Positions 11,133 to 63,679 of a DNA stretch of 64,000 nt are shown one piece after another. Below the pieces are notes generated by a model. That model did not search any database. It was not told the origin of the DNA and saw only the letters and a program-made list of their open reading frames with translations. The translations under genes were made by a program, and so were the position numbers. Numbering within the stretch: the first letter of the stretch is position 1; every line of letters starts with the position of its first letter. The DNA lies in contig CACZNH010000002.1 in NCBI GenBank assembly GCA_902782465.1, forward strand, positions 176,998-240,997. The letters run 5' to 3'. This DNA comes from an uncultured Bacteroidales bacterium (GTDB lineage: Bacteria > Bacteroidota > Bacteroidia > Bacteroidales > Muribaculaceae).

Positions 11133-11160
11133 TTAACTATTCTCTATCAACTATTAACTG
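11133..11160 (-). repeat. Heptamer array B (4 units)
   Basis: Plus-strand units TTAACTA, TTCTCTA, TCAACTA and TTAACTG. In the sense of the downstream minus-strand gene (dnaQ) they contain TAG, TAA and TGA triplets. The array starts 3 bases after the dnaN stop. Confidence 0.6.
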
Positions 11161-12335: not shown

Positions 12336-12366
12336 CAAAGATAGTGCAAGTCGAGCAAAGAACAAA
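12336..12366 (-). promoter_or_regulatory. dnaN operon promoter inside a hairpin repeat
   Basis: On the minus strand TTTG (12363-12366) and TATCTTTG (12336-12343) are separated by 19 bases, a perfect Bacteroidales primary-sigma promoter. The -33 box and part of the -7 box lie within hairpin repeat copy 1. Confidence 0.75.
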
Positions 12367-12405
12367 AAGAATTTATTCTTTTTTTATTTCGAGACGCCGC
12401 CTATC
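12340..12405. repeat. Promoter-carrying hairpin repeat, copy 1
   Basis: Long imperfect palindrome: GATAGTGCAAG at one end, CGCCGCCTATC at the other, and a central perfect stem AAAAAGAAT/ATTCTTTTT with a 2-base centre. The whole 81-base segment 12340-12420 is repeated exactly at 12422-12502. Its outer end overlaps the -7 box of dnaN. Confidence 0.85.
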
Positions 12406-12421
12406 TTCGCCGCCAGGCAGC

Positions 12422-12487
12422 GATAGTGCAAGTCGAGCAAAGAACAAAAAGAATTTATTCTTTTTTTATTTCGAGACGCCGCCTATC
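12422..12487. repeat. Promoter-carrying hairpin repeat, copy 2 (tandem)
   Basis: Exact direct repeat of copy 1 with a period of 82 bases. On the minus strand its -7 position reads TATCGCTG instead of TATCTTTG, so this copy has probably lost promoter activity, although its internal -33 TTTG is intact. Confidence 0.85.
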
Positions 12488-12519
12488 TTCGCCGCCAGGC
12501 AGGATTCATATTTACAAAT

Positions 12520-16449: not shown

Positions 16450-16499
16450 CACCACAAAAAATAGTTCACTGTTGTAAAGCTTCAGACGATAGTATTCGT

Positions 16500-16534
16500 A
16501 CTTAAAACTTACAACTTAAAACTTACAACTTGTA
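16500..16534 (+). repeat. Heptamer array C (5 units)
   Basis: Units ACTTAAA, ACTTACA, ACTTAAA, ACTTACA and ACTTGTA, directly before the start codon at 16539. TAA triplets occur in alternate units on the sense strand. Confidence 0.75.
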
Positions 16535-21765: not shown

Positions 21766-22446
21766 ATGAAGATTGGAATCATTGTGGCGATGCGTAAGGA
21801 GCTGGATCTGCTCTTGCCGTTGCTGCACGACAGCGAGGAGAGCTGCATGAGCGGCTTTGAGTTCCACTGTGGCAAGATGGGTGGTCATGACGTGATGGTG
21901 ATGCAGTGCGGCATCGGCAAGGTGAATGCCGCGATGGGCGCATTGATGCTCGTCAACCATTTTGCTCCCAATTTTGTGATTAACAGCGGCGTTGCCGGCG
22001 GTGCTGACAAGTCTGTCAATGTCATGGATGTGGTGGCCGGTGCACGTGTCGCTTATCATGACGTGTGGTGCGGCCCCGAGAGCGAGTTGGGTAGGGTACA
22101 GGGCTTGCCCCTCTATTTCGAGGGAGCCTCACGCCTGCTTGAGCTCTTGCCTGAACGTGAAGACATCCACAAGGGCCTGATTTGCTCCGGTGACCAGTTC
22201 ATCGACAAGATGGAAGACGTGAACCGCATCAAGGGCAACTTCCCCGAAGCGCTGGCGGTGGATATGGAATCGGGCGCTATAGCCCAGGTATGCCACCTGT
22301 GCAAGGTGCCTTTCATGGCACTGCGTGTCATCAGCGACTCGCCCGGTGCCAGTCATGACAACACCAAGCAGTATATGGACTTCTGGACCGATGCCCCGCA
22401 AGAGACCTTCAAAATCCTTAAAGACCTCATCTCCAAACTAAACTGA
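21766..22446 (+). CDS. mtnN: 5'-methylthioadenosine/S-adenosylhomocysteine nucleosidase
   Basis: Hydrolyses MTA and SAH, releasing adenine; from SAH it makes S-ribosylhomocysteine, the substrate of LuxS encoded next. The 226-residue protein has the start IGIIVAMRKELDLL with Glu12, the INSGVAGG motif, VDMESGAIAQVC with Glu168 and the catalytic aspartate Asp191 in ISDSPG. The length is normal. Its stop codon TGA is part of the first unit of the heptamer array that separates it from luxS. The two genes form a complete SAH detoxification and AI-2 pathway. Confidence 0.95.
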   Translation: MKIGIIVAMRKELDLLLPLLHDSEESCMSGFEFHCGKMGGHDVMVMQCGIGKVNAAMGALMLVNHFAPNFVINSGVAGGADKSVNVMDVVAGARVAYHDVWCGPESELGRVQGLPLYFEGASRLLELLPEREDIHKGLICSGDQFIDKMEDVNRIKGNFPEALAVDMESGAIAQVCHLCKVPFMALRVISDSPGASHDNTKQYMDFWTDAPQETFKILKDLISKLN

Positions 22447-22531
22447 CAACTGAAAACTGAAAACTGACAACTGAAAACTGAAAACTGAAAACTGAAAACT
22501 GACAACTGACAACTGAAAACTGACAACTGAA
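22441..22531 (+). repeat. Heptamer array D (13 units)
   Basis: Thirteen consecutive 7-base units of AACTGAA or AACTGAC in perfect register, running from the last Asn codon and stop of mtnN to one base before the luxS ATG. TGA occurs in every unit and so in all three frames. It is the longest array in the window. Confidence 0.95.
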
Positions 22532-22532
22532 T

Positions 22533-23015
22533 ATGGAAAAAATCGATAGTTTCAAGATTGACCACACCAGGTTGCTGCGTGGCATCTACGTTTCCCGTAA
22601 GGATTACCTGAGCGGTGGCGATGTGATTACCACTTTTGACATTCGCATGAAGTTGCCCAACCGTGAGCCTGCCGTGAGCCAGAGTGCCTTGCACACCATT
22701 GAGCATCTGGCAGCAACCTATCTGCGCAACCATCCCGTGTGGGGCGACAAGGTTATTTATTGGGGACCCATGGGCTGCTGCACAGGCAATTACCTCTTGC
22801 TCAAGGGCGACCTCACGAGCCGTGACATTGTGCCCCTGATGCAGGAACTGTTCAAGTGGATTACCGAGTTTGACGGCGACATTCCCGGTGCCAATGCCCA
22901 CGACTGTGGCAACTACATGCTCAACAACCTGCCCATGGCCAAATGGGAGGCCCGCAAGTACTATGTCGAAGTCCTGCAGGACATCAAGGAAGAAAACCTT
23001 GTCTATCCCGACTGA
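22533..23015 (+). CDS. luxS: S-ribosylhomocysteine lyase
   Basis: Cleaves S-ribosylhomocysteine into homocysteine and DPD, the precursor of autoinducer-2. The 160-residue protein carries the metal ligands His54 and His58 (HTIEH) and Cys125 (HDCGNY), and the catalytic Cys in GCCTG (about 82). All key residues are present. It is co-oriented with mtnN and separated from it only by heptamer array D. A strong terminator follows. Confidence 0.97.
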   Translation: MEKIDSFKIDHTRLLRGIYVSRKDYLSGGDVITTFDIRMKLPNREPAVSQSALHTIEHLAATYLRNHPVWGDKVIYWGPMGCCTGNYLLLKGDLTSRDIVPLMQELFKWITEFDGDIPGANAHDCGNYMLNNLPMAKWEARKYYVEVLQDIKEENLVYPD

Positions 23016-24318: not shown

Positions 24319-24346
24319 TAATTATCAATTATCTATTATCTTATAT
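24319..24346 (-). repeat. Short ATAATTA-type heptamer stretch before ackA
   Basis: Three to four loose 7-base units (TCAATTA, TCTATTA, TCTTATA on the plus strand) sit just upstream of the ackA ATG. In the ackA sense they contain TAA, TAG and TGA. Confidence 0.5.
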
Positions 24347-24353
24347 ATAAAAT

Positions 24354-24409
24354 CTAACGCCTAACGCCTAACGCCTAAAGCCTAAAACCTAACGCCTAAC
24401 GCCTAAAGC
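24354..24409 (-). repeat. Heptamer array L (8 units)
   Basis: Eight exact 7-base units on the plus strand, CTAACGC with variants CTAAAGC and CTAAAAC, then two degenerate units that run into the end of the pta frame. In the ackA sense each unit contains TTAG. Confidence 0.9.
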
Positions 24410-24412
24410 CTC

Positions 24413-32127: not shown

Positions 32128-33888
32128 ATGGAAATGGGGTCTGGATACGGCAAATGGCGTGACACGGTTATTTTTGTGTCATGTGTCGCTGTGGCAGCAT
32201 GGCAGTGCTTTTACGTTGCCCTTGACACGCGATTGGGCGGACTGGGCAACGTTTTCCATGAGTGGCACGCTGTGGCTGTTTCTGTTGCCAACGCATTGGT
32301 GCTGCTGTCTCCCTATTGGCTGCTCAAGCCACGCTGGCGTGGACTGGTTTGGATTCCCTTGTCCTTATTGACACTATGGTGCCTGATGCAAGTTTGCTAT
32401 TGCAGGGCCTATGATGACTTGATGCCCGTGCGCAGTCTGCTGATGACTGAAAATGTCAACAAAACGTTGACCGACAGTTTTCTGGACTTGCTGCGTTGGC
32501 GCGATTTGCTCATTGTGGTGCCATTCCTGCTATTGCCGTTTGTTATCCGAGCGGTGGTTACTGAACAGAAATTCCGTGTCAAGGCATTCTCTTTGACACT
32601 GCTTGCAGCGTTCCTTTTTGGCGTTGTGGGCTATTACACCTCTGACGGAAATTACGAGAAACGGTTCCTGTACAATTTCAGCAACAGCGACTATTTTGCT
32701 CTTAATGGTTTGATTCCTTACGGCCTATGTTCTATCCATCAGGCCATCTCACACAGCCACACGGTGACCGATGCCGAGCGTGCCGAAATCGATAGATTCC
32801 TGCATGAGCAATGTCCGCAATATCATGATAACCGGTACTGTATTGCACCCTTGCAGCGCAACTTGGTGCTCATCATCGTCGAGTCGCTGCACACCTGGCC
32901 CATCGGCATGCAGGTTGATGGCCGAGAAGTAACGCCAACGCTTAATCGCCTTATCGCTGCCGAGGGTGCAATCTATGCCCCTCACGTCCTGTTCCAGACG
33001 GGACACGGCCATTCCAGTGACGCCCATTTCATATACAACACGGGCTTGTTACCCCTGCGCGACGATGTGGTGGCAGTAAATTACGGCGATGGACCCTATC
33101 CATCGTTGGCTGATGCGCTTAAGGGTTATGACTGCCGCATGATGGTGTGTGATGACAAGGGATATTGGAATCAGGCGGTCACTTCCCAAAGTTATGGCTT
33201 TGACACGTTGTACTGTCATGACCAGCTGGCAGCCAGTGGCGCTTTGAAGCGTCATGCGGGAGTAGATGATGCTGCCCTGACCGACTATGCGGCATTGCTG
33301 TTGCCGCAGCTGCATCAGCCTTTCTTCCTCGAGATGGTGACAATGACAATGCACACGCCTTATCCACAGGACAAGGTGCGTCACTCCTGGATTCTTGACA
33401 GTGACACCCTCAATGCCGAAGCTCGCAGCTACTTGAACTGTGTCAACCTCACCGATAGTTGCATTGGTGCCTTCATGGATAACTTGCAACGCAACGGGCT
33501 GGCTAGTAATACGGTGGTCGCTATCTTGAGCGATCATACGCAACTTTACCGCAATCGCATCATGGGGTTGACAGATTATGATGCTGTCCCCGACGATTGG
33601 GGCATCCCGATGATTATCACGGGTTGTGACACCACTTTACGTTATGAACCGGTCCTCGGACAGGTAGACGTGTTCCCGACTTTGCTGGATGTGATGGGCG
33701 CTAATGGCTATCCTTGGAAAGGTTTGGGTCACAGTCTGTTGCGCTATGATGTGAGGAGCGCCATCCAGCCACGCAACATGTCGGTCTTGGGCGACAGCAC
33801 AGCCTTGACGCCCCAGCAGCGGCAGGCTTGGGACATATCCCGCCTGCTCATCCTGGACCGTGCCCACTACTTCAAAACTGACAACTGA
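32128..33888 (+). CDS. LtaS-like membrane sulfatase / phosphotransferase
   Basis: A 586-residue protein with about five N-terminal transmembrane helices (residues 15-175) and a periplasmic alkaline-phosphatase/sulfatase-fold domain (about 245-560). The likely nucleophile region is TGHGHSSDAHF (Ser296/Ser297), where LtaS has Thr in GKTSD; further sites are LVLIIVESLH and LSDHTQLY. It may transfer phosphoglycerol or phosphoethanolamine to an envelope glycan; the acceptor is unknown. Its last codons and stop (Thr-Asp-Asn-stop) are encoded by heptamer array E. Confidence 0.85.
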   Translation: MEMGSGYGKWRDTVIFVSCVAVAAWQCFYVALDTRLGGLGNVFHEWHAVAVSVANALVLLSPYWLLKPRWRGLVWIPLSLLTLWCLMQVCYCRAYDDLMPVRSLLMTENVNKTLTDSFLDLLRWRDLLIVVPFLLLPFVIRAVVTEQKFRVKAFSLTLLAAFLFGVVGYYTSDGNYEKRFLYNFSNSDYFALNGLIPYGLCSIHQAISHSHTVTDAERAEIDRFLHEQCPQYHDNRYCIAPLQRNLVLIIVESLHTWPIGMQVDGREVTPTLNRLIAAEGAIYAPHVLFQTGHGHSSDAHFIYNTGLLPLRDDVVAVNYGDGPYPSLADALKGYDCRMMVCDDKGYWNQAVTSQSYGFDTLYCHDQLAASGALKRHAGVDDAALTDYAALLLPQLHQPFFLEMVTMTMHTPYPQDKVRHSWILDSDTLNAEARSYLNCVNLTDSCIGAFMDNLQRNGLASNTVVAILSDHTQLYRNRIMGLTDYDAVPDDWGIPMIITGCDTTLRYEPVLGQVDVFPTLLDVMGANGYPWKGLGHSLLRYDVRSAIQPRNMSVLGDSTALTPQQRQAWDISRLLILDRAHYFKTDN

Positions 33889-33917
33889 CAACTGACAACT
33901 GACAACTGACAACTCAA
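33876..33917 (+). repeat. Heptamer array E (6 units)
   Basis: Five AACTGAC units and a final AACTCAA, spanning the end of the sulfatase gene (stop TGA at 33886-33888 inside the array) and reaching to one base before the ATG at 33919. Confidence 0.92.
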
Positions 33918-35478: not shown

Positions 35479-37620
35479 TTATTTCTTCATCTTCTCCTTC
35501 ATGATTTCAATACTCAATGCAACATCTTTGGTTTTGGGATTCTGTTCTCCCAATTTTATCTTACGAATTTCATAAGCCTTTTCAAAATACTCCAACGCCT
35601 TTTTATAGTCTCCCTGTTCTCTATAAACCCACCCGATGTTGTTGTAATCTGTGGCCGTGTCAGGGTGTTCTTTGCCCAATACTTTCTCTTTGATGTCCAA
35701 AGCCTTGAAATGGAACTCCAGCGCCTTGTCGTATTCGTCTTGACTATCGTAAACCAAACCGATGTTATTGTATGACGTGGCCGTGTGCGGGTGTTCTTTG
35801 CCCAATACTTTCTCACGGATATCCAAAGCCTTGAAATGGAACTCCAGCGCTTTGTTGTATTCGCCTTGTTTCTCGTAAACCACACCTATGTTATTGTAAT
35901 TTATGGCCGTGTCAGGGTGTTCTTTGCCTAATTTTTTCTCATCGATGTCCAAAGCCTTGAAATGGTACTCCAGCGCCTTGGCGTATTCGCCTTGGCGATA
36001 GTAAACCAAACCGATGTTGTTGTAGGACTGAGCCGTGTCAGGATGTTCTTTGCCCAATACTTTCTCACGGATGTCCAAAGCCTTGAAATAGTACTCCAGC
36101 GCCTTGTCGTATTTACCTTGGCTCTTGTAAACCACACCGATGTTGTTGTAATCTATGGCTGTGTCAGGGTGTTCTTTGCCCAATACTTTCTCATCGATGT
36201 CCAAAGCCTTAAAATAGAGCTCCAGCGCCTTGTCATATTCACCTTGGCTCTTATAAACCAACCCGATTTCATTGTATGACGTAGCCGTGTCAGGGTGTTC
36301 TTTACCCAATACTTTCTCACGGATTTCAAGTGCCTTTTTATGGAACTCCAGCGCTTTGTCGTATTCACTTTGGTACCAGTAAACCCCACCGATGTTATTG
36401 TAGGAAGTGGCTATCTCTTTGCTATCTGTGCCATATAGTTTTTCGGTTATGGCAATTTGGCGGAGATAGACATCAATGGCTTGCTTATAGAAAGCATAAT
36501 CATAAAGAAACCCAGCATAGTCAAGCAGCAGTTGGGCATATTTCTTATCGTCGTAGTCGCTGCGCTTTGCCCAATCGTCGGCTTTTGCGTATATCTCTGC
36601 TATACGTTTGATGCGCTCCTCGATGGGCTTCTCTGCTTCTGCCATGACGGTCTTGATTTGCAGCAATTGGGCTTCGATGTGTTCATGCATCTGTTCATGT
36701 TTTGTGTCAATTTCCTCCATGAGTTGCTCGCCGTCTTTCTCCAATTTTTGAAGCAAACTATTAGCTAAATCGAGGTTACCTGACTTAAAAGCATTGATAG
36801 CGTCTTGCAGTTTCTTGCTGACTTGTTGTTTGCTAAGTTCGGCAATTTGCTTTGCAGCACCTAATAGGGCATTCTGTTGACGTTCAAACTCTTGCAATAT
36901 TTCATTGCGCTCAATTTGATTCTGGCTTAAAGTGGCCGAAAAATCGGGATCCTCAGGATATTTCTCGATACTTTTCCTTACCGACTCGATGTTTTTATCC
37001 AGCCATTGCAGCCTTTTTTTCAACTGCAAGTATTCTTTATTGTTAAAAGCAAAAGCAAGCTCAGACATATCGACGATAGGTACATCGCCCAAAGTAATCT
37101 CGCCTTTTTCCACTTTAAGTTCGCTGTTGCCGCCGAACAGGAGGCTGTCGAGCCACAAAACATAATCCAGATGGAGTTCGGGTGTGGTATTATAGCTGCC
37201 CCAAAAGTGTTCTAGCTGTAGCTCGATATGGTTTTTGAATTTGGTCAATTCCAATGATTCTTTTTCATTTTGACCATGCTCGCTCTCCTTGAAATAGATG
37301 AATAATGGTAGTTTGCGTTTTCTGTTCTCTTCTTCGGCTACAGTGAATTCTTCCATTGTAAAACCACCAGCTTTGAGATAAAAGAGTACTACAAACACAT
37401 CACAGTTCCTGACATACTCGTTATACTCATTCTGCTTCCGTTCATCCATATAAGCAGGGTCAAGATATTCCCAGATATCCAGTATAATTGAGATGCCTCG
37501 ATCAGCATAATGATGGTTTAGTCGGGAGATTAATCTCTCAAAACCTTCTCGGTCTTGTTTCAGTTCACTGGACGATGCCAGGAAAACTCTAAAAGTATTT
37601 ACCGTTTTTGTTTTCATCAT
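35479..37620 (-). CDS. TIR/DUF4062-like N-domain fused to coiled coil and TPR repeats
   Basis: A 713-residue soluble protein. Residues 1-120 (FRVFLASSSELKQDREGF, NCDVFVVLFY, GGFTMEEF) match the start of DUF4062/TIR-like domains that in other proteins act as nucleotide- or NAD-linked effectors. Glu in FTMEEF sits where TIR domains have their catalytic Glu, but activity is not proven. Residues about 195-345 are charged coiled coil. Residues about 370-700 hold eight TPR units of the TPR_12/kinesin-light-chain type; the last seven have a fixed 42-residue period and are nearly identical (YNNIGxVYxxQGEYDKALE, KVLGKEHPDTA). No signal peptide. It is divergent from an EEP nuclease. TIR-TPR fusions occur in defence and signalling, so a role in immunity is plausible but inferred. 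Confidence 0.78.
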   Translation of the reverse strand: MMKTKTVNTFRVFLASSSELKQDREGFERLISRLNHHYADRGISIILDIWEYLDPAYMDERKQNEYNEYVRNCDVFVVLFYLKAGGFTMEEFTVAEEENRKRKLPLFIYFKESEHGQNEKESLELTKFKNHIELQLEHFWGSYNTTPELHLDYVLWLDSLLFGGNSELKVEKGEITLGDVPIVDMSELAFAFNNKEYLQLKKRLQWLDKNIESVRKSIEKYPEDPDFSATLSQNQIERNEILQEFERQQNALLGAAKQIAELSKQQVSKKLQDAINAFKSGNLDLANSLLQKLEKDGEQLMEEIDTKHEQMHEHIEAQLLQIKTVMAEAEKPIEERIKRIAEIYAKADDWAKRSDYDDKKYAQLLLDYAGFLYDYAFYKQAIDVYLRQIAITEKLYGTDSKEIATSYNNIGGVYWYQSEYDKALEFHKKALEIREKVLGKEHPDTATSYNEIGLVYKSQGEYDKALELYFKALDIDEKVLGKEHPDTAIDYNNIGVVYKSQGKYDKALEYYFKALDIREKVLGKEHPDTAQSYNNIGLVYYRQGEYAKALEYHFKALDIDEKKLGKEHPDTAINYNNIGVVYEKQGEYNKALEFHFKALDIREKVLGKEHPHTATSYNNIGLVYDSQDEYDKALEFHFKALDIKEKVLGKEHPDTATDYNNIGWVYREQGDYKKALEYFEKAYEIRKIKLGEQNPKTKDVALSIEIMKEKMKK
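35521..36402 (-). repeat. Seven tandem 126-base TPR-coding repeats
   Basis: Seven in-register units of 126 bases (42 codons) with very high DNA identity inside the TPR gene, for example the recurring phrase TTCTTTGCCCAATACTTTCT on the plus strand. The near identity suggests recent duplication or gene conversion. Confidence 0.9.
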
Positions 37621-39738: not shown

Positions 39739-39744
39739 TCTGAT

Positions 39745-39786
39745 AACTGACAACTGAAAACTGAAAACTGAAAACTGACAACTGAA
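39745..39786 (+). repeat. Heptamer array F (6 units)
   Basis: Six units of AACTGAC/AACTGAA between mlaE and mlaF, ending two bases before the mlaF ATG. TGA occurs in every unit. Confidence 0.92.
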
Positions 39787-39788
39787 AT

Positions 39789-40583
39789 ATGATTGAAGTC
39801 AAGCATTTATCCAAATCCTTCAAGGAAGACGGTGGCGTGCGTCAGGTATTGTTCGACGTGAGCTGTAAACTGTATGACGGCAAGACCAACCTCATCATCG
39901 GACAGTCAGGCTCGGGTAAGACGGTGCTGATTAAGAACATCGTCGGCCTGTTTGACCCCGATGAGGGCGAAATCCTGTATGACGGTCGCGACATTACCAA
40001 GATGAACCGCAAACAACGCAAGGACTTGCGCAAGGAAATCGGTATGCTGTTCCAGGGCTCGGCCTTGTTCGACAGCGAGACGGTGATGGGTAACGTCATG
40101 TTCCCCCTGGTGATGTTTGGCGGCATGGCAAACAGCGAGATGCGTGACCGTGCCCAGTTCTGTATCGACCGCGTGAACCTCACGGGTAGCGAGAACAAGT
40201 TTCCCAGCGAGCTCTCGGGCGGTATGCAGAAGCGCTGTGCCATTGCCCGCGCCATAGCCTTGAATCCCCGATACCTCTTCTGCGACGAGCCCAACTCGGG
40301 CCTTGACCCCAAGACTTCGATTGTCATCGACGAATTGTTGAGCGACATCACCCACGAGTTCGGCATCACCACCATCATCAATACCCACGACATGAACTCG
40401 GTGATGGGTATTGGCGAGAACATCGTGTTTATCAATAAGGGTCATGTGGGATGGATTGGCAACAAGGACGAGGTCTATAATGTTGACAACGATGACTTGA
40501 ACAATTTCGTCTATGCCACCGACCTGTTCCGTGACGTGCGCAAGTACCGTCGCGAACACGGCTACAAACCAACGAGGAGTTAG
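39789..40583 (+). CDS. mlaF: ABC transporter ATPase MlaF
   Basis: A 264-residue ABC ATPase: Walker A GQSGSGKT (about 38-45), Q-loop, signature LSGGMQKRCAIARA (about 140), Walker B YLFCDEPNSGLDP and the switch His (NTHDM). It powers the MlaE permease encoded just upstream. The stop codon TAG is part of heptamer array G. Confidence 0.94.
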   Translation: MIEVKHLSKSFKEDGGVRQVLFDVSCKLYDGKTNLIIGQSGSGKTVLIKNIVGLFDPDEGEILYDGRDITKMNRKQRKDLRKEIGMLFQGSALFDSETVMGNVMFPLVMFGGMANSEMRDRAQFCIDRVNLTGSENKFPSELSGGMQKRCAIARAIALNPRYLFCDEPNSGLDPKTSIVIDELLSDITHEFGITTIINTHDMNSVMGIGENIVFINKGHVGWIGNKDEVYNVDNDDLNNFVYATDLFRDVRKYRREHGYKPTRS

Positions 40584-40625
40584 GAGTTAGGAGTTAGAAG
40601 TTAGAAGTTAGAAGTTAGAAGTTAG
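40577..40625 (+). repeat. Heptamer array G (7 units)
   Basis: Three GAGTTAG then four AAGTTAG units; the first unit contains the last bases and stop codon of mlaF. TAG occurs in every unit. Downstream, CTATAGCATCTATA occurs twice with an 18-base period (40637-40650, 40655-40668). Confidence 0.92.
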
Positions 40626-40690
40626 AAGTGACTTCTCTATAGCATCTATAAATACTATAGCATCTATATCATCAAGAGTTAGAAAAATCA

Positions 40691-42033: not shown

Positions 42034-42037
42034 AAAA

Positions 42038-42072
42038 AACTGACAACAGACAACTGAAAACTGAAAACTGAA
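42038..42072 (+). repeat. Heptamer array H (5 units)
   Basis: AACTGAC, AACAGAC, then three AACTGAA, ending two bases before the queF ATG. The second unit lacks TGA because of one substitution. Confidence 0.88.
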
Positions 42073-42074
42073 TT

Positions 42075-43200: not shown

Positions 43201-43202
43201 AA

Positions 43203-43311
43203 GATATTGGATAATAGATATTAAATAATAGATGCTTGGAGAACAAGAGGTTAGATGCTTGTTTCTTGATTTTGAAATCTTTTATCTATTATCTTTTAAC
43301 TATTATCTAAA
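43203..43311 (+). repeat. Inverted pair of 7-base arrays before fabD (array I)
   Basis: GATATTG, GATAATA, GATATTA, AATAATA (43203-43230) form one arm; ATCTTTT, ATCTATT, ATCTTTT, AACTATT, ATCTAAA form the opposite arm (about 43276-43311). Between them is a 45-base unrelated segment with GATGCTTG twice. The first arm carries TAA and TAG in the sense of fabD. Confidence 0.65.
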
Positions 43312-44366: not shown

Positions 44367-45221
44367 TCAATCGAATTTCTTGCGACGGAAGATAAAATTG
44401 TGGCCCAGGTACTTGTCGCGCACAGTGGGATTGTCGGCCAGTTCCTCGCTGGTGCCTTGGAACAGGATTTTGCCTTCAAACAGCAGATAAGCCCTGTCGG
44501 TGATGCTCAGCGTCTCAGGGGCGTTATGGTCGGTGATGAGGATGCCGATGTTCTTGCTCTTCAGGCTATAGACGATGCTCTGGATGTCCTCCACGGCGAT
44601 GGGGTCAACACCGGCAAAGGGTTCGTCGAGCATGATGAAGCGCGGGTTGATGGCCAGGCCGCGGGCAATCTCGGTGCGGCGGCGCTCGCCACCTGACAGG
44701 CGGTTACCCAGGTTCTTGCGCACCTTCTGCAGGTGGAACTCACTGATGAGCTGTTCCAAACGGTCTTTTTGCTCAGCGGGGGTGAGGGTTGTCATCTCCA
44801 GCACGGTGCGGATGTTGTCCTCAACACTCAGCGTGCGGAAGACCGATGCTTCCTGAGGCAGGTAGCCAATGCCCAACTGGGCACGTTTATAGACGGGTAG
44901 GGTGGTGATGTCAACATCGTTGAGGAATACGCGTCCTTCGTTGGGTGTGACAAGGCCGGTGGTCATATAGAAGGTCGTCGTCTTGCCGGCACCGTTAGGT
45001 CCCAACAAACCGACAATCTCGCCTTGATGCACGTCGATGGATACATGATTCACGACGATACGTTGGCGGTACTTCTTCACCAGGTTATCGGTGCTCAGTA
45101 CCAGCGTGCCCGCTTCGCCCGACGCGTTCAGCCGTGCCGCAGTCGCCTTGTCGCCAGGCTTCACTGCAGGCTTGCCGCCCTCATCGCCGTCTTTTCCTTT
45201 ATTTCCCCAAGGAATCTTCAT
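44367..45221 (-). CDS. lptB: LPS export ABC transporter ATP-binding protein LptB
   Basis: A 284-residue ABC ATPase of the LptB family: Walker A GPNGAGKT (74-81), Q-loop QEASVFR, signature [14 protein letters not shown], Walker [21 protein letters not shown] and the switch LITDHN. It drives LPS transport with LptFG. It has a 40-residue charged N-terminal extension not found in E. coli LptB. It is downstream of udk, and an LptD-like gene lies divergently 1 kb away, so two LPS-transport genes share the neighbourhood. Confidence 0.94.
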
Positions 45222-45227
45222 CGTTGA

Positions 45228-45297
45228 TCAGTTTTCAGTTTTCAGTTTTCAGTTGAATGCGGATGCTGCTGACATCTGACAACTGATGACTGAAAAC
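45228..45297 (-). repeat. Composite heptamer array J with inverted arms
   Basis: Plus strand: four TCAGTTT/TCAGTTG units (45228-45255), a spacer AATGCGGATGCTGC, then four TGACATC/TGACAAC-type units (45270-45297). The arms are inverted relative to each other, so the transcript can fold. It lies exactly between the udk stop and the lptB start. The spacer core TGCGGATG is shared with 50695-50771. Confidence 0.85.
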
Positions 45298-45921
45298 TTA
45301 TTTCTTTTTATTCATTGTCAGGCGACCCTTGATGTAGTCGGTGATCAGGTTGATGGCCACCTCGTTGTTGCCGCCCTCGGGGATGATGATGTTAGCAAAT
45401 TTCTTGGTCGGCTCGATGTGCAACTGGTGCATGGGCTTGAGCACGCGCTGGTAGCGGTCAATGACAGCCTGTGCAGTGCGGCCGCGCTCGATGCAGTCAC
45501 GCGAGATGACGCGAATCAGGCGGTCGTCACCGTCGGCATCCACAAATACCTTGATGTCCATCATCTTCCTCAGGCGCGAGTCCACCAGCGCCATGATGCC
45601 CTCGATGAGCACCACGTCGTGCGGGTCCATGTGCTCGGTCTCCTTCTGGCGCGAGCAGGTCAGGTAGCTGTAGGTGGGCATCTCGATGGGCTCACCCTTC
45701 TTGAGCATCTTGACGTGTTCCAGCAGCAGATTCCAGTCAAAGGCTGCCGGTTCATCAAAGTTAATGTTCTGACGCTCCTCGGGCGGAACGTGGCTTGAAT
45801 CCTTATAATAGGAGTCTTGAGAAATCACACCCACCTCGCCTTCGGGCAAGCGTTCCATGATTTTACGCACCACAGTCGTTTTTCCTGAGCCGGTACCTCC
45901 GGCAATACCGATGATAATCAT
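45298..45921 (-). CDS. udk: Uridine kinase
   Basis: Phosphorylates uridine and cytidine in pyrimidine salvage. The 207-residue protein has the P-loop GGTGSGKT (8-15), the VISQDSYYKD motif, NFDEPAAFDW and FVDADGDDRLIRRVISRD-like phosphate-binding residues (DDRLIRVISRD). The length is normal. It precedes lptB on the minus strand with a composite array between them. Confidence 0.95.
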   Translation of the reverse strand: MIIIGIAGGTGSGKTTVVRKIMERLPEGEVGVISQDSYYKDSSHVPPEERQNINFDEPAAFDWNLLLEHVKMLKKGEPIEMPTYSYLTCSRQKETEHMDPHDVVLIEGIMALVDSRLRKMMDIKVFVDADGDDRLIRVISRDCIERGRTAQAVIDRYQRVLKPMHQLHIEPTKKFANIIIPEGGNNEVAINLITDYIKGRLTMNKKK

Positions 45922-49505: not shown

Positions 49506-50693
49506 TTAGGGCAAAGACACCTTGCCCAAGATGCCCTTGATGTGCGCGATGGTGATGCCGTAGTTGGTCATCGGGACGCCCTGCTGGCGGCATTGTTCCA
49601 CACGTGAGAGCATGAACTTGCGGTTGAACATGCAGCCACCGCAATGAATGACCAGGTCATAGCCTGACAAATCGCTGGGGAAATCCTTGCCGGCAACAAT
49701 ATCTACCGTCAAGCCTTGCCCAACGCGCTTGCGCAGCAGGCGGGGTATCTTTTCGCGTCCGATGTCCTCGGCCAGCGGGGCATGGGTGCAGGCTTCGGCA
49801 ATCAGTACGCGTGACCGTTCTGTCAGTTTGTTAATGGCTGGGGCACTCTCTACGAAGTACTGAATATCGCCCTTATGAGCCGCCATCAGTACTGAGAACG
49901 AGGTGAGCAGACTCTCGGCAGGCTTCTTCTGCTCTACGATGTCAAACACCTGTGAGTCGGTGATGATGAGATGTGGCGGTTCCTTCAGGGCTGCCAATGT
50001 GCGGTCTATATCCTCGGTCGTGCAGCAGATGGCGATACACCCTTTGTCCATCAGGTCGCGCAGGGTCTGCACCTGCGGCAGAATCAATCGGCCTTTAGGT
50101 GCCTGCGGGTCTTGCGGCATCACCAGCAGCACGGTGTCGCCGGCCAAGGCGAGGTTGCCTGTCAGCGTCTGCTTGCCGCTTTCAGGAGCTAAACCCGCCA
50201 ACGTTTGTCGCAACAGGTCAAGCCCTGTCCCTTTCAAGGCACTTACGGGAATCACGTCACAGCCCAGCCGTTTGGCGATGTCGGCAAGTATGGCAGAAGG
50301 AACTTCGTCCTGCAAGTCCACCTTGTTCAGTACGGCAACGAAAGGCACATTAGCCTGCTTCAACAGGCCAGCCCATGCCGCCTCATCGTCGAGAGTGGTG
50401 CCGTCGGTAACGATGATGGCGATATCGGTCTGCTTGATGACCTCACGTGTGCGCTCGGTGCGCAGGTCGCCCACTTTGCCGCTGTCGTCAAATCCCGCCG
50501 TGTCAATGAGTACGCAAGGCCCTAGCGGCAGGATTTCCATCGACTTCATCACCGGGTCGGTCGTGGTGCCAGGCACATCGCTCACCAGGGCTGTCTGTTG
50601 TCCAGTCAGTGCATTGATGAGCGAAGACTTGCCCGCATTGCGCCGTCCAAACAGCGCAATGTGCAGCCTTTCACTCCTCGGTGTATTGTTCAT
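49506..50693 (-). CDS. hydF: [FeFe]-hydrogenase H-cluster maturation GTPase HydF
   Basis: Scaffold for assembly of the 2Fe subcluster. The 395-residue protein has a GTPase domain with G1 GRRNAGKS (16-23), G3 DTAGF and G4 NKVD, a dimerisation domain, and a C-terminal [4Fe-4S] domain with HCGGCMFNR (Cys351, Cys354) plus a later Cys (EQCR). It is downstream of hydG, separated by a composite heptamer array. Confidence 0.95.
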   Translation of the reverse strand: MNNTPRSERLHIALFGRRNAGKSSLINALTGQQTALVSDVPGTTTDPVMKSMEILPLGPCVLIDTAGFDDSGKVGDLRTERTREVIKQTDIAIIVTDGTTLDDEAAWAGLLKQANVPFVAVLNKVDLQDEVPSAILADIAKRLGCDVIPVSALKGTGLDLLRQTLAGLAPESGKQTLTGNLALAGDTVLLVMPQDPQAPKGRLILPQVQTLRDLMDKGCIAICCTTEDIDRTLAALKEPPHLIITDSQVFDIVEQKKPAESLLTSFSVLMAAHKGDIQYFVESAPAINKLTERSRVLIAEACTHAPLAEDIGREKIPRLLRKRVGQGLTVDIVAGKDFPSDLSGYDLVIHCGGCMFNRKFMLSRVEQCRQQGVPMTNYGITIAHIKGILGKVSLP

Positions 50694-50694
50694 T

Positions 50695-50771
50695 ACAGTT
50701 TTCAGTTTTCAGTTTTCAGTTGTCAGTTGAGTGCGGATGATGCTGAAAACTGACAACTGAAAACTGACGAC
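50695..50771 (-). repeat. Composite heptamer array K with inverted arms
   Basis: Plus strand: five ACAGTTT/TCAGTTT/TCAGTTG units (50695-50729), spacer AGTGCGGATGATGC, then four TGAAAAC/TGACAAC/TGACGAC units (50744-50771). Same design and spacer core as 45228-45297, located between the hydG stop and the hydF start. Confidence 0.88.
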
Positions 50772-50775
50772 TAGT

Positions 50776-52191
50776 TTAGAAGTAGAAGTCGCGTTTGCCG
50801 GTGCCGATATCCTGGATGTGCTTGGCGGCGATTTCGCGTACGCGCTCGTTGGGCATCTTGGCCAGTTCGCGCTCGATGAGGGCGTTGCCCTTGGCGATGG
50901 TGTCTTCGCTGGCAAAGTCCATGAGGTATTCCTTGAGCGTCATCAGCGCATTGGGCGTGCAGATGTCACCAATCTTGCCGGCTTTAACCAATTCCATAAA
51001 GCGGTCACCCGTGCGTCCCGAGCGGTAGCAGGCGGTGCAGAAACTGGGCAGGTAGCCGATGGACAGCAGCCAGTTGATGACCTCGTCGAGGGTGCGCGTG
51101 TCGCTCACGTCAAACTGTGCTGTCTCGTCATGGCGCTCAACGGTGGTATAGCCGCCAACGCTGGTGCGGCTGCCGCCACTGATCTGCGAAACGCCCAGGT
51201 CAAGCACCTTGGAACGCACGCTCTGGCTCTCGCGGGTAGAGATAATCATGCCGGTATAGGGCACTGCCAGGCGGATAACGGCGATGATGCGGCAGAAGAT
51301 GTCATCGGGCAGCACATCGGGGAACTCGTCGAGAGTGATGTCCTCGGCAGGGCAGATGCGCGGCACGCTGATGGTGTGCGGTCCCACGCCGAACTTGGCC
51401 TCCAGGTGCTCGGCATGCATCAGCAGACCCACGAAGTCATAGCGGTAGGTGGTCAGGCCGTACAGCACGCCGATGCCCACGTCGTCACAACCGCCCATTT
51501 GGGCACGGTCCATCGCCTCGGTATGGTAGCAGTAGTTGCTCTTGGGGCCCGTGGGATGCAGCGCCTCGTAGTTCTTGCGGTTATAGGTCTCCTGGAACAG
51601 GATATAGGTGCCGATGCCAGCGGCCTTGAGTTTCTCGTAGGCCTCGACCTCGGTAGCGGCGATGTTCACGTTCACGCGACGGATTTCGCCATTGCCCACC
51701 TTGGTGTCATAGATGGTGTGAATTGAGTCGATGATATACTCCAGCGGATTCATCGTCGGGTGCTCGCCAGCCTCCAGTGCCAGACGCTTGTGACCCATCT
51801 TCACCAGCGCCTCGACCTCCGAACGGATTTCCTCCTGTGTCAGTTTCTTGCGCGGGATGGTTTTGTTCTTGGCATGGTAGGGACAATAGACGCAGCCGTT
51901 GATGCAGTAGTTGGACAGGTACAGTGGCGCAAACATCACGATGCGGTTGCCGTAGAAGCGCTGTTTCACCTCGCGGGCCAGTTGCTCGTATCGCTCAATC
52001 AGGTCGGGCTGGTCGCAGTCCAGCAGCACTGCTGCCTCGCGGTGCGTCAGGCCCTTGCACTTGGCGGCTTTTTCAATGATTTCCTCAATCAGGGCACGAT
52101 TGCTCTTGTTTTTCTCAGCGTAGGCTAGGGTTTCCAGTATCTCGCTATCGTCGATGAATTCATCGGCATGATTTGACTTAACGTTATACAT
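50776..52191 (-). CDS. hydG: [FeFe]-hydrogenase maturase HydG (radical SAM)
   Basis: Cleaves tyrosine to make the CO and CN ligands of the H-cluster. The 471-residue protein has the radical-SAM motif Cys96-x3-Cys100-x2-Cys103 (CINGCVYC) and the C-terminal cluster motif CTACYRSGRTGDRFM (Cys385, Cys388) with Cys411, which separates HydG from ThiH. The start MYNVKSNHADEF at 52191 fits a promoter at 52225. HydE and the hydrogenase itself are not in the window. Confidence 0.95.
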   Translation of the reverse strand: MYNVKSNHADEFIDDSEILETLAYAEKNKSNRALIEEIIEKAAKCKGLTHREAAVLLDCDQPDLIERYEQLAREVKQRFYGNRIVMFAPLYLSNYCINGCVYCPYHAKNKTIPRKKLTQEEIRSEVEALVKMGHKRLALEAGEHPTMNPLEYIIDSIHTIYDTKVGNGEIRRVNVNIAATEVEAYEKLKAAGIGTYILFQETYNRKNYEALHPTGPKSNYCYHTEAMDRAQMGGCDDVGIGVLYGLTTYRYDFVGLLMHAEHLEAKFGVGPHTISVPRICPAEDITLDEFPDVLPDDIFCRIIAVIRLAVPYTGMIISTRESQSVRSKVLDLGVSQISGGSRTSVGGYTTVERHDETAQFDVSDTRTLDEVINWLLSIGYLPSFCTACYRSGRTGDRFMELVKAGKIGDICTPNALMTLKEYLMDFASEDTIAKGNALIERELAKMPNERVREIAAKHIQDIGTGKRDFYF

Positions 52192-59304: not shown

Positions 59305-59328
59305 CAACCATGTGGCGATAGAAATCAT

Positions 59329-59363
59329 ACTTAAAACTTACAACTAAAAACTAGAAACTAGAA
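59329..59363 (+). repeat. Heptamer array M (5 units)
   Basis: ACTTAAA, ACTTACA, ACTAAAA, ACTAGAA, ACTAGAA, then TAGAATATG at the start codon of the phosphorylase. TAA or TAG is present in four of the five units. Confidence 0.8.
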
Positions 59364-62011: not shown

Positions 62012-63553
62012 TTATCCGTTGAGCAGATAGTCAATCAACGCTGTCACGTCCGAGACGTCAATCCGGCCGTCACCATTCACATCGGCAGCCTCCAGATAGA
62101 TACCAGATGAGTTGTCGTTCAGTATGTAGTCAACCAAGGCCGTGACATCAGAGATATCCGCAATGCCGTCACCATTCAAATCACCACGTTCCAAAACGAA
62201 GGGTGAGAAATACCCTGGGTTATCTGGACCGCCATCGATATGAGCATATGCGGCATCTAGATGGTTCACATCATAGGCTGTGCCCAAGCCACCTACAAGA
62301 CTGAAGCAATCATAGAACATGTTTCTGGAACCGGTGACGTTGTCTGTATTCCAATAGTTACTAACATAGATTGTTGCTAAGTTATAGCTACTTCTGAACA
62401 TGAAACTCATTGTGGTTACCTCATGCGTGTTGAACCTACTCAAGTCAATACTTGTCAAACCATAACAATATTCAAACATGCAGGTCATATCCGTCACTTG
62501 CTCGGTATTGAAACTGTTCACGTCAAGGTTCAACAAATTAATGCAACTACTAAACATCCATGCCATGCTGGTCACTTGTTGAGTATTGAAATTGCTAAGG
62601 TCAAGACTAGTCAAACCATAGCATTTATAGAACATACTGCCCATGCTAGTCACTTGTTCGGTGTTAAAGTTGCTCACGTCAAGGTTCGTCAAACTATGGC
62701 AATCAGCGAACATGCTATTCATGGAAGTCACTTGCTCGGTGTTGAAGTTGCTCAGGTCAAGGTTCGTCAAACTATGGCAATCAGTGAACATGTTATTCAT
62801 GTTAGTCACTTGTTCAGTGTTGAAGTTGCTCAGGTCAAGGCTCGTCAAACTTTCACATTTGAAGAACATGGCGCCCATGTTAGTCACTTGTTCAGTGTTG
62901 AAGCTGCTCACGTCAAGGTTCGATAAACTGAGACAATTATCAAACATGCCAGCCATGTATTTCACGTTAGCAGTGTTGAAATTGCTCAGGTCAAGGCTAC
63001 TCAAACCACTGCAATAGTAGAACATGTTATTCATGTCAATGACGTTAGCGGTGTTAAAACTGCTTACATCAAGGTTTGTTAAACCACTGCAATTGTAGAA
63101 CATAGAGCTCATGTCAGTGACTTTAGCAGTATTGAAGTTGCTCACGTTAAGGCTCGTTAAACCACTGCAGTTGTAAAACATAGCATACATGTATTTCACC
63201 TCTGATGTGTTGAGATATTCGATGCGTTCGATCGATTCGAGGTTGTTCATATTATAAAACCAACCAGAGGTTGAAGTGGGACGGGCAGATGCAAAAGATG
63301 GGTCAAAAATTACCTGAGTCACAAGAGTAGTAATGTCATAGTATGCCCAAGTAGGAAAATAATTACCATCATTCAGATTATAGATAGTGCCGGGGCGGGT
63401 ATTGCGCTGGGTGTCGTAGTAGAACGTCAGCGTCATGTTGTCGGTCGTGTTGTCGGTCGTGATCACTGCGTAGGCTTCCTGGGCCAGTGCACTCATTGAA
63501 CACATCAGTAATGCCATCAGGGCAAGCATTTTTGTTGGAAATAATCGTTTCAT
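62012..63553 (-). CDS. BspA-like DUF285 repeat surface protein with C-terminal dockerin
   Basis: A 513-residue exported protein. The signal peptide (start MKRLFPTKMLALMALL, end ALAQ) is followed by about twelve 26-residue DUF285 repeats of the type LDLSNFNTEQVTNMNNMF, which form a leucine-rich-like solenoid found in BspA-type adhesins. At about 455-513 there is a dockerin pair (DLNGDGIADISD, DVNGDGRIDVSD). The repeats are nearly identical at DNA level. The frame extends 17 codons upstream; the start at 63553 fits the signal peptide. Likely a surface adhesin; ligand unknown. Confidence 0.86.
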   Translation of the reverse strand: MKRLFPTKMLALMALLMCSMSALAQEAYAVITTDNTTDNMTLTFYYDTQRNTRPGTIYNLNDGNYFPTWAYYDITTLVTQVIFDPSFASARPTSTSGWFYNMNNLESIERIEYLNTSEVKYMYAMFYNCSGLTSLNVSNFNTAKVTDMSSMFYNCSGLTNLDVSSFNTANVIDMNNMFYYCSGLSSLDLSNFNTANVKYMAGMFDNCLSLSNLDVSSFNTEQVTNMGAMFFKCESLTSLDLSNFNTEQVTNMNNMFTDCHSLTNLDLSNFNTEQVTSMNSMFADCHSLTNLDVSNFNTEQVTSMGSMFYKCYGLTSLDLSNFNTQQVTSMAWMFSSCINLLNLDVNSFNTEQVTDMTCMFEYCYGLTSIDLSRFNTHEVTTMSFMFRSSYNLATIYVSNYWNTDNVTGSRNMFYDCFSLVGGLGTAYDVNHLDAAYAHIDGGPDNPGYFSPFVLERGDLNGDGIADISDVTALVDYILNDNSSGIYLEAADVNGDGRIDVSDVTALIDYLLNG

Positions 63554-63590
63554 AATAGTATGGTTTTGGTTAATAATGTTGTGCTGGTTG

Positions 63591-63598
63591 CAAAGATA
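63591..63598 (-). promoter_or_regulatory. -7 box of the BspA-like gene
   Basis: The minus strand reads TATCTTTG, 38 bases upstream of the ATG at 63553. Confidence 0.5.
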
Positions 63599-63679
63599 AT
63601 ACATATTCCGTAATAATTATCACATTTTTGGCAAATTATATCACATAAAATCCACATTATCAAAAAAGCGAACACAAAA

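Follow-up and report, generated by a model that had tools for sequence, protein, structure and literature searches.

Tandem heptamer arrays between neighbouring genes of a rumen-type Bacteroidales bacterium

Tandem arrays with a period of 7 nt are a leading feature of gene boundaries in the sampled part of a rumen-type Bacteroidales genome (3.13 Mb, 45 contigs). Our analysis establishes the period, location and anchoring of these arrays, the strand rule that they follow, their stop content on both strands and their turnover at three spacers. In the sense strand, arrays next to start codons are A+C-rich and arrays next to stop codons are mostly G+T-rich, a mirror rule that connects repeat expansion in a simple and testable way with translation initiation in the absence of a Shine-Dalgarno (SD) sequence. 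We consider it reasonably probable that slippage-prone, dispersed heptamer arrays are sorted by translation and RNA structure.

Heptamer arrays in the window and in the genome sample

In the window, the whole 64-kb stretch of this genome that was analysed, thirteen AACTGAM units lie between an mtnN-like gene and luxS (Table 1). This array, first pointed out in an earlier note on the same DNA, is genuine, because the unit series can be read directly and a period-7 scan returned the segment 22441-22530. The array shares 6 nt with the end of mtnN, and 2 nt separate it from the luxS ATG; no RNA structure is predicted for the region 22430-22545 (fold MFE 0).

Ten period-7 segments scoring at least 14 were found in the window, compared with a mean of 0.0 in 10 Markov shuffles; the same scan found no segment of at least 14 for periods 2-6 and 8-11. 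The earlier note had listed eleven places, including the array before luxS, and nine of these hold a detectable array. Those at 16500, 24354, 33876, 39745, 40577, 42038 and 59329 were all recovered by the period-7 scan with a score of at least 11, and the one at 2256 was detected by TRF alone (2260-2289, score 39). At 11133 and 63680, two or three degenerate pieces are present, in which neither TRF nor the period-7 scan detects an array. Three pairs had been missed, namely 45228-45254 (TRF and period-7 scan) with 45269-45298 (TRF), 50696-50729 with 50743-50767 (TRF and period-7 scan), and 43202-43233 (TRF) with 43277-43309 (TRF and period-7 scan). The arrays at 24354 and 40577 do not end near a start codon, as the earlier note had described for most arrays; both are anchored at the upstream stop codon instead.

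Table 1. Heptamer arrays, apex cores and the two genes flanking the luxS array in the 64-kb window.
Feature	Positions	Strand	Context
mtnN-like gene (PF01048)	21766-22446	+	stop codon inside array unit 1
AACTGAM array, 13 units	22441-22531	+	occupies whole mtnN-luxS spacer; A+C-rich in sense
luxS (PF02664)	22533-23015	+	
Core-B-like apex GACGATAGTATTCGTACT	16485-16502	+	runs into AACTTAM array
AACTTAM array	16500-16531	+	divergent spacer; 7 nt before a start
Short ATAATAG-type array	24321-24341	-	adjoins acetate kinase gene start
G+T-rich GGCGTTA array	24354-24411	-	begins 1 nt after phosphate acetyltransferase gene stop; 36 nt short of downstream start
AACTGAC array	33876-33914	+	13-nt overlap with sulfatase-family gene end; 4 nt before hemerythrin-domain gene
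AACTGAM array	39740-39785	+	spacer between MlaE-family gene and ABC ATPase gene
G+T-rich GTTAGRA array	40575-40629	+	9-nt overlap with ABC ATPase stop codon; 61 nt short of next start
AACTGAM array	42038-42072	+	2 nt before queF
A+C half AACTGAA, class A composite	45228-45254	-	adjoins ABC transporter gene start
Core A apex CAGCATCCGCATTC	45255-45268	-	
G+T half, TCAGTTK type	45269-45298	-	after uridine-kinase-like gene stop
A+C half AACTGAM, class A composite	50696-50729	-	adjoins hydF-like gene start
Core-A-like apex CATCATCCGCACT	50730-50742	-	
G+T half, TCAGTTK type	50743-50767	-	8 nt after radical-SAM gene stop
Core-B-like apex GGCGATAGAAATCATACT	59314-59331	+	
AACTTAM/AACTAAA array	59329-59363	+	precedes phosphorylase-family gene

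A known RNA family was ruled out as the identity of the arrays by a search with Rfam 15, which gave no match at the gathering score in the window. The window also contains a perfect 82-bp tandem duplication (two copies, 12340-12502) between called genes, and long repeats inside genes at 35620-36411 (126/252 bp) and 62493-63193 (78/234 bp); the latter belong to a DUF285-repeat protein with a dockerin domain.

The genome sample consisted of stretches in two sets, set A with 455,727 bp (window included) and set B with 400,000 bp, giving 855,727 bp in total. Four hypotheses, the mirror rule among them, were fixed ahead of the held-out set B. Genes were taken from our own codon-usage caller, which may have placed some starts wrongly and which missed queF in the window. 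In total, 118 period-7 arrays scored at least 14 (64 in set A and 54 in set B), and 142 scored at least 11 (79 and 63). The period of 7 given in the earlier note was borne out, since every other period from 4 to 15 except 14 yielded 0-5 arrays per set, and one Markov shuffle of set A yielded none over periods 4-15. A period-7 segment (score of at least 9) occupies part of the last 25 nt before 84 of 596 called ATG starts, a raw, unshuffled count.

Altogether, 33 distinct units (strand-collapsed) occur in 856 kb. What had been taken for different motifs is mostly one related set, with 27 of the 33 units chaining at one mismatch; in 60 sets of shuffled units the largest cluster held 23% on average and 61% at most. 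Three consecutive AACTGAN units (AACTGANx3) gave 223 overlapping matches in the genome (112 forward, 111 reverse) and the reversed pattern gave none. In 44 arrays containing AACTGA, the core is intact in 211 units and altered at one position in 20, and a further 37 units are other heptamers. The seventh base of the 211 intact units is A in 146, C in 62 and G in 3, so that it varies in 65 units and the six core positions together in 20, with a bias towards an intact core because the arrays were chosen for containing AACTGA. Of six long AACTGA arrays, some show a seventh base that recurs in two-unit or four-unit blocks, as in AAC.AAC.AAC.AAA and CAACACACACACACA. Among the matches listed, this base is mostly A/C in our genome and in G020, and mostly T/C in G010.

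Placement, strand rule and stop codons

Arrays are almost confined to spacers, with 1 of the 142 arrays scoring at least 11 lying within a called gene. An array is present in 53 of 179 aligned spacers in set A and 45 of 180 in set B, in 7 of 35 and 2 of 29 convergent spacers, and in 2 of 35 and 2 of 36 divergent spacers, the last being a lower share than in aligned spacers (p = 0.0025 and 0.0076 for sets A and B). The nearness to start codons claimed in the earlier note holds for A+C arrays, which end 0-6 nt before the start in 35 of 66 cases (8.9 under random placement) at a distance that is not fixed. For G+T arrays, the first base falls within -10 to +6 of the stop in 30 of 46 cases (11.2 expected). 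Among 113 arrays in aligned spacers 20-300 nt long, 21 include the stop codon of the upstream gene.

At starts, the sense strand is A+C-rich in 23 of 23 arrays in set A and again in 23 of 23 in set B. At stops it is G+T-rich in 22 of 29 arrays (one tie) in set A and in 19 of 22 in set B, or 41 of 51 overall. These counts omit arrays touching both gene ends, which make up 13 of 36 (A) and 8 of 31 (B) start-proximal and 13 of 42 (A) and 8 of 30 (B) stop-proximal arrays. Because the non-array sequence of aligned genes is mostly A+C-rich on both the start side (157 of 236) and the stop side (141 of 233), the rule at starts strengthens an existing bias, and the rule at stops goes against it. In stretches from eight relatives, 17 of 38 arrays, from four species, could be classed; those at starts were A+C-rich in 5 of 5 cases, and those at stops were G+T-rich in 8 and A+C-rich in 4.

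Flipping the array in place at starts increased the predicted structure in 36 of 46 cases (median 4.5 kcal/mol, p = 6.6 × 10−6), and flipping it at stops decreased the structure in 39 of 51 (p = 1 × 10−4). Structure around the SD region of a 5′ UTR lowered expression five-fold in Prevotella bryantii (PMC3155529), and initiation in Flavobacterium is tuned by structure and by an A at -3 (PMC6847099), according to the sections of these papers that we drew on. The strand rule looks tied to an unfolded mRNA start rather than to stop signals.

A possible, although doubtful, explanation is that the A+C arrays are leaders for SD-less initiation, that is, an unstructured landing site as MacGregor 2015 (PMC4679880) proposed for TAACTGA in the part used here, to which ribosomal protein S1 or a different RNA-binding protein might bind. 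Their anchoring at 0-6 nt before starts, the A+C-rich sense strand in 46 of 46 arrays, the lower structure compared with the flipped array and the mostly constant core with a free seventh base all argue for such a role. In addition, a single AACTGA precedes starts without a period-7 segment 15 times in our genome compared with 3.9 in letter shuffles, and TCAGTT 0 times compared with 1.9. Orthologues nevertheless manage without arrays, and the distance to the start is variable. AACTGA was also absent before starts in samples of the genomes G004 (0 of 102) and G046 (0 of 56), which says little against it as a universal start motif and carries little weight here because just 0.8 and 0.4 occurrences were expected.

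Stop codons were central to the earlier note, which had proposed translation insulation, with arrays kept because three units halt ribosomes in any frame before the next start. We regard this as quite unlikely, even though the sense-strand stops are there: in sense, every one of the 67 start-proximal arrays closes two or more frames and 56 of them close all three, 28 of the 67 close none in antisense, and where the strands differ in closure the sense strand wins by 18:3 and 17:2. All-frame closure was found in just 56 of 236 non-array 35-nt pre-start regions of aligned genes, a loose yardstick because array lengths differ. A sense stop is present in 19 of 20 distinct start-proximal units, compared with 10.3 expected from letter shuffles, and this excess likewise favours insulation. 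The single stop-bearing orientation that had been claimed is not supported at this level, however, because an antisense stop is present in 17 of the same 20 units. The per-unit asymmetry nearly vanishes because CTAA, TTAG and CTAG give stops both ways, and 23 of the 33 strand-collapsed units have stops on both strands (7.3 in letter shuffles). Random orientation without a stop excess, the outcome named beforehand as refuting the proposal, did not occur; the stop excess is real, but it is two-stranded.

Arrays with equal frame closure on both strands still mostly follow base composition in their orientation, with A+C:G+T ratios of 13:2 and 11:1 at starts and 6:20 and 4:14 at stops (both-end arrays included). 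The stop-less unit AACTTAC is not avoided: it occurs 9 times compared with 32 for AACTTAA, a ratio that does not differ (p = 0.84) from that of the always-stop control (55 AACTGAC and AACTAAC compared with 169 AACTGAA and AACTAAA), which is uneven in its two parts (54 vs 138 for AACTGA, 1 vs 31 for AACTAA). Stop-proximal arrays showed no consistent preference for the stop-rich strand (12:4 and 5:7, or 3:4 and 3:5 without both-end arrays). The halves at 45269 and 50743, which read TCAGTTK in the transcript sense and sit just past stop codons, contain no stop codon, contrary to the expectation of sense-strand stops in almost every array. Because 27 of the 33 units are related, the effective sample for insulation is also small. 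Two-stranded stops, composition-driven strand choice, unavoided AACTTAC and stop-less TCAGTTK arrays led us to reject stop insulation as the main driver, and the stop excess may instead result from survivorship at gene ends together with common descent of the units.

Composite elements and turnover among relatives

In 292 aligned spacers, a G+T array occurs at the stop in 48 and an A+C array at the start in 67. Both occur together in 20 spacers compared with 11.0 expected (p = 0.0013). These composites have the order G+T array, conserved apex, A+C array and start codon. The apex is core A in nine of the 20, core B in six and neither in five. Class A reads (TCAGTTK)n-CAG-CGGCATCCGCATTC-AACTGA(AAACTGA)n with an inner hairpin GCGG-CAT-CCGC, and class B reads (GTTAGGN)n-TTAGGCGATAGTAATCNTACT-(TAAAACT)n. 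The window holds two class A composites (45222-45297 and 50694-50775), for which hairpins of -26.9 kcal/mol (45210-45310, z -4.0) and -35.7 kcal/mol (50680-50790, z -6.6) are predicted.

Composites could represent a dispersed hairpin element (REP/BIME- or MITE-like) of which single arrays are decayed or expanded halves, a possibility that we judge unlikely. The two apexes are conserved: of 101 genomes of the genus, 53 contain core A (GGCATCCGCATTC, 13 nt exact) and 13 contain core B. The arms of core A fold better with each other than with swapped arms at 49 of 68 intergenic sites from six of nine sampled species (p = 1.5 × 10−6), the arms being heptamer arrays as well as unrelated sequences. 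Core B leads into at least three AACT-type units at 14 of 15 sites inspected out of 50 listed, with about two units at the remaining site, and the shared spacers (20 of 292 compared with 11.0) point in the same direction. The pairing of the two arrays, by contrast, was better than with swapped partners in just 14 of 20 composites (p = 0.10), the six with core B pairing poorly, and a G+T partner is missing from 47 of the 67 spacers that carry an A+C array. A Y1 transposase (PF01797) was found in 92 of 101 genomes, including G004 with no AACTGANx3 match, and was not found in the array-bearing genomes G064 and G089.

Cognate pairing of both arrays in all composites was rejected on the basis of the non-significant 14 of 20; the arms of core A do match. 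An element driven by a Y1 transposase looks doubtful as well, since the presence of the gene does not match that of the arrays, in a rough presence-or-absence comparison that counted any Y1 protein in incomplete MAGs.

The core A word also builds intrinsic-terminator-like hairpins. As CATCCGCA it forms inverted pairs in our genome on contig C1 near 126929, 237657 and 245114, and a T run follows the latter two; the 20 array composites lead on into an A+C array and a start codon. In another genome (G015, C11 9200-9650), core A occurs three times at 88-bp spacing with near-identical repeated flanks.

Related species carry other or related 7-mers, or none, at three spacers. Period-7 segments (score of at least 9) were found in 6 of 12 relatives in the mlaE-mlaF spacer and in 9 of 12 in the mlaF-HD spacer, with 12 of 13 species covered (G029 was not recovered). 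The units of the relatives include GTCTAAA, AACTAGG, GACTAAG and GTTAATA, compared with AACTGAM or GTTAGAA in our genome, and a GTTAGGA-like array at the mlaF stop is common to G082, G072 and our genome. In several species, the mlaF-HD spacer contains a further tandem word, approximately ATCCGTTTC/GTCCGTTTT, between the stop-side array and the start. In the queF spacer (42034-42074, between the GATase gene and queF), all five recovered relatives, each a different species, have no array and have a TTTGC-type sequence, which we take to be of a promoter type; our genome has the array and no TTTGC-type sequence. It looks as though the array replaced a promoter there.

The mtnN-luxS spacer is 5-81 nt long in 23 relatives and contains a few degenerate units at most (6 of 30 loci were dropped because luxS was not found there). 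Among the best 80 of 191 loci, the best named matches to mtnN were uncultured Bacteroidales MAGs of the Muribaculaceae or Prevotellaceae, many of them labelled as ruminant-derived and possibly without our own genome among them. After 23 of these 80 loci were dropped, AACTGA adjoined the luxS start in 6 of 27 close MAGs (protein identity of at least 79%) and in 0 of 30 distant ones, by our own count.

AACTGANx3 was found in 49 of 101 genomes of the genus. A scan of the phylum found it in 39 of 392 genomes, our own included, and because the reversed control matched 15 genomes (our own count), the excess over the control is modest outside the genus. In G004 (160 kb), no period-7 array scored at least 11 and AACTGANx3 had no match. 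A 100-kb stretch of G046 had no array scoring at least 14; that genome nonetheless has 107 AACTGANx3 matches. These stretches speak against the presence of arrays in all relatives.

Origin of the arrays and comparison with known heptamer repeats

A length of 7 nt is expected to escape mismatch repair, and start codons of Bacteroidetes are reported to be SD-less. In the reading that we favour, arrays would lengthen and shorten in 7-nt steps through slippage or unequal exchange, and would disperse partly as modules with the two conserved apex cores. The signs of length change are the blocks within some arrays and the turnover between species, each represented by one genome. Selection would decide which arrays survive, with coding sequences and promoters excluding them. 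Before start codons, just the unstructured A+C-rich strand would be tolerated, or might even serve as a leader. At the 3′ ends of genes, units with stops would survive because an array running past a stop codon has to provide another, whatever the frame, which would make frame closure a condition of survival and not an insulating device.

Several observations count against this sorting of dispersed arrays. Stop capture accounts for the stop excess just where arrays touch the stop codon (21 of 113). Drift alone leaves unexplained both the recurrence of AACTGA in Beggiatoaceae and elsewhere and the unequal variation of seventh base and core (65 vs 20, in AACTGA-selected arrays). Because the G+T rule at stops opposes an A+C-rich background (141 of 233), a model of pure tolerance misses some positive cause.

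Tandem repeats between promoter and start are a known type of switch, as in the UspA2 case cited in the part of PMC4679880 used here, and the arrays might accordingly be phase-variable contingency repeats that switch expression via copy number. This is very unlikely given that the window arrays adjoin housekeeping families (luxS, acetate kinase, phosphate acetyltransferase, queF, hydF, mla, glycogen synthase and phosphorylase). Among 20 window proteins no association with surface or antigen genes was seen, and no array was detected beside the gene of a surface-like protein at 62012-63604 (DUF285 repeats, dockerin).

The earlier note had known of no described role for such repeats in Bacteroidales. 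A precedent that includes Bacteroidetes exists, however: in the sections of MacGregor 2015 (PMC4679880) that we drew on, TAACTGA direct repeats are reported from marine Beggiatoaceae, some Cyanobacteria and five Bacteroidetes. It was the one Bacteroidetes paper on such heptamers among the matches listed in the open-licence literature; the excerpt of a Thiomargarita paper (PMC4853749) restates its finding. According to the same sections, TAACTGA repeats in the BOGUAY genome are mostly forward and just before start codons without SD, three-frame stops were already named as a factor governing their distribution, and indels between two Cyanothece strains are mostly in steps of 7. BOGUAY uses one fixed heptamer in 2-6 copies per set, with up to 43 copies in other species. 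Both repeats are intergenic and the core is identical in another register (TAACTGA = AACTGAT), and in our genome, too, AACTGAN direct repeats run forward to a nearby start, with reversed TCAGTTK arrays following stops. Related heptamers are rarely repeated in BOGUAY, whereas we found 33 distinct units. A family of related heptamers, a free seventh base and paired G+T/A+C arrays with apex cores set our arrays apart from the TAACTGA repeats as described there, and neither an apex core nor a mirror rule appears in those sections.

The G-rich heptamer arrays GGGAATC of Xanthomonas and GGGGAYT of Nostoc resemble our arrays in layout, as far as the sections of Rehm 2015 (PMC4692102) used here describe them. 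They too prefer aligned ORFs, are under-represented in coding and divergent regions and overlap stop codons; inverted pairs are frequent in Xanthomonas, and the G-rich strand is coding after stops and non-coding before starts, which corresponds to our mirror rule. Their units contain runs of three or four G and are G-quadruplex-capable, whereas just one of our 142 array consensus units contains three consecutive G on either strand and the other 141 never exceed two.

Heptanucleotides are the most abundant STRR/LSSR class in most genomes, according to the summary of Mrazek 2007 in PMC4679880. Tandem heptanucleotides at many loci, for which slippage was proposed, describe our arrays equally well (118 scoring at least 14 in 855,727 bp and 0 in one shuffle of set A); the unit sequences differ, and anchoring and a strand rule are absent from that summary. 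In the sections used of PMC2700814, Geobacter metallireducens has dispersed elements of tandem heptamers, one class being MTYCTGA, and its GGGACCG class, unlike our arrays, also lies within genes; the repeats number four or five per element.

In the parts of these papers that we consulted, the cause of 7-nt arrays is a matter of proposals alone, and we did not find there interchangeable units with conserved apex cores that are replaced by other heptamers at the same spacers. Speculatively, and with considerable doubt, heptamer arrays may be an element that evolved convergently at the gene boundaries of bacteria with few or no SD sites. A 7-nt lattice would then be built anew time and again in the same spacers, each time from differing units, and would govern ribosome release and re-entry between aligned genes, with separate origins in Bacteroidales, in Beggiatoaceae and, as G-rich arrays, in Xanthomonas and Nostoc. 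If so, one half of the lattice, following the stop codon, would be rich in G+U, and the other, ahead of the following start, in A+C. The recurrence of this layout in phyla that are not related suggests that 7-nt arrays have a cause in common.
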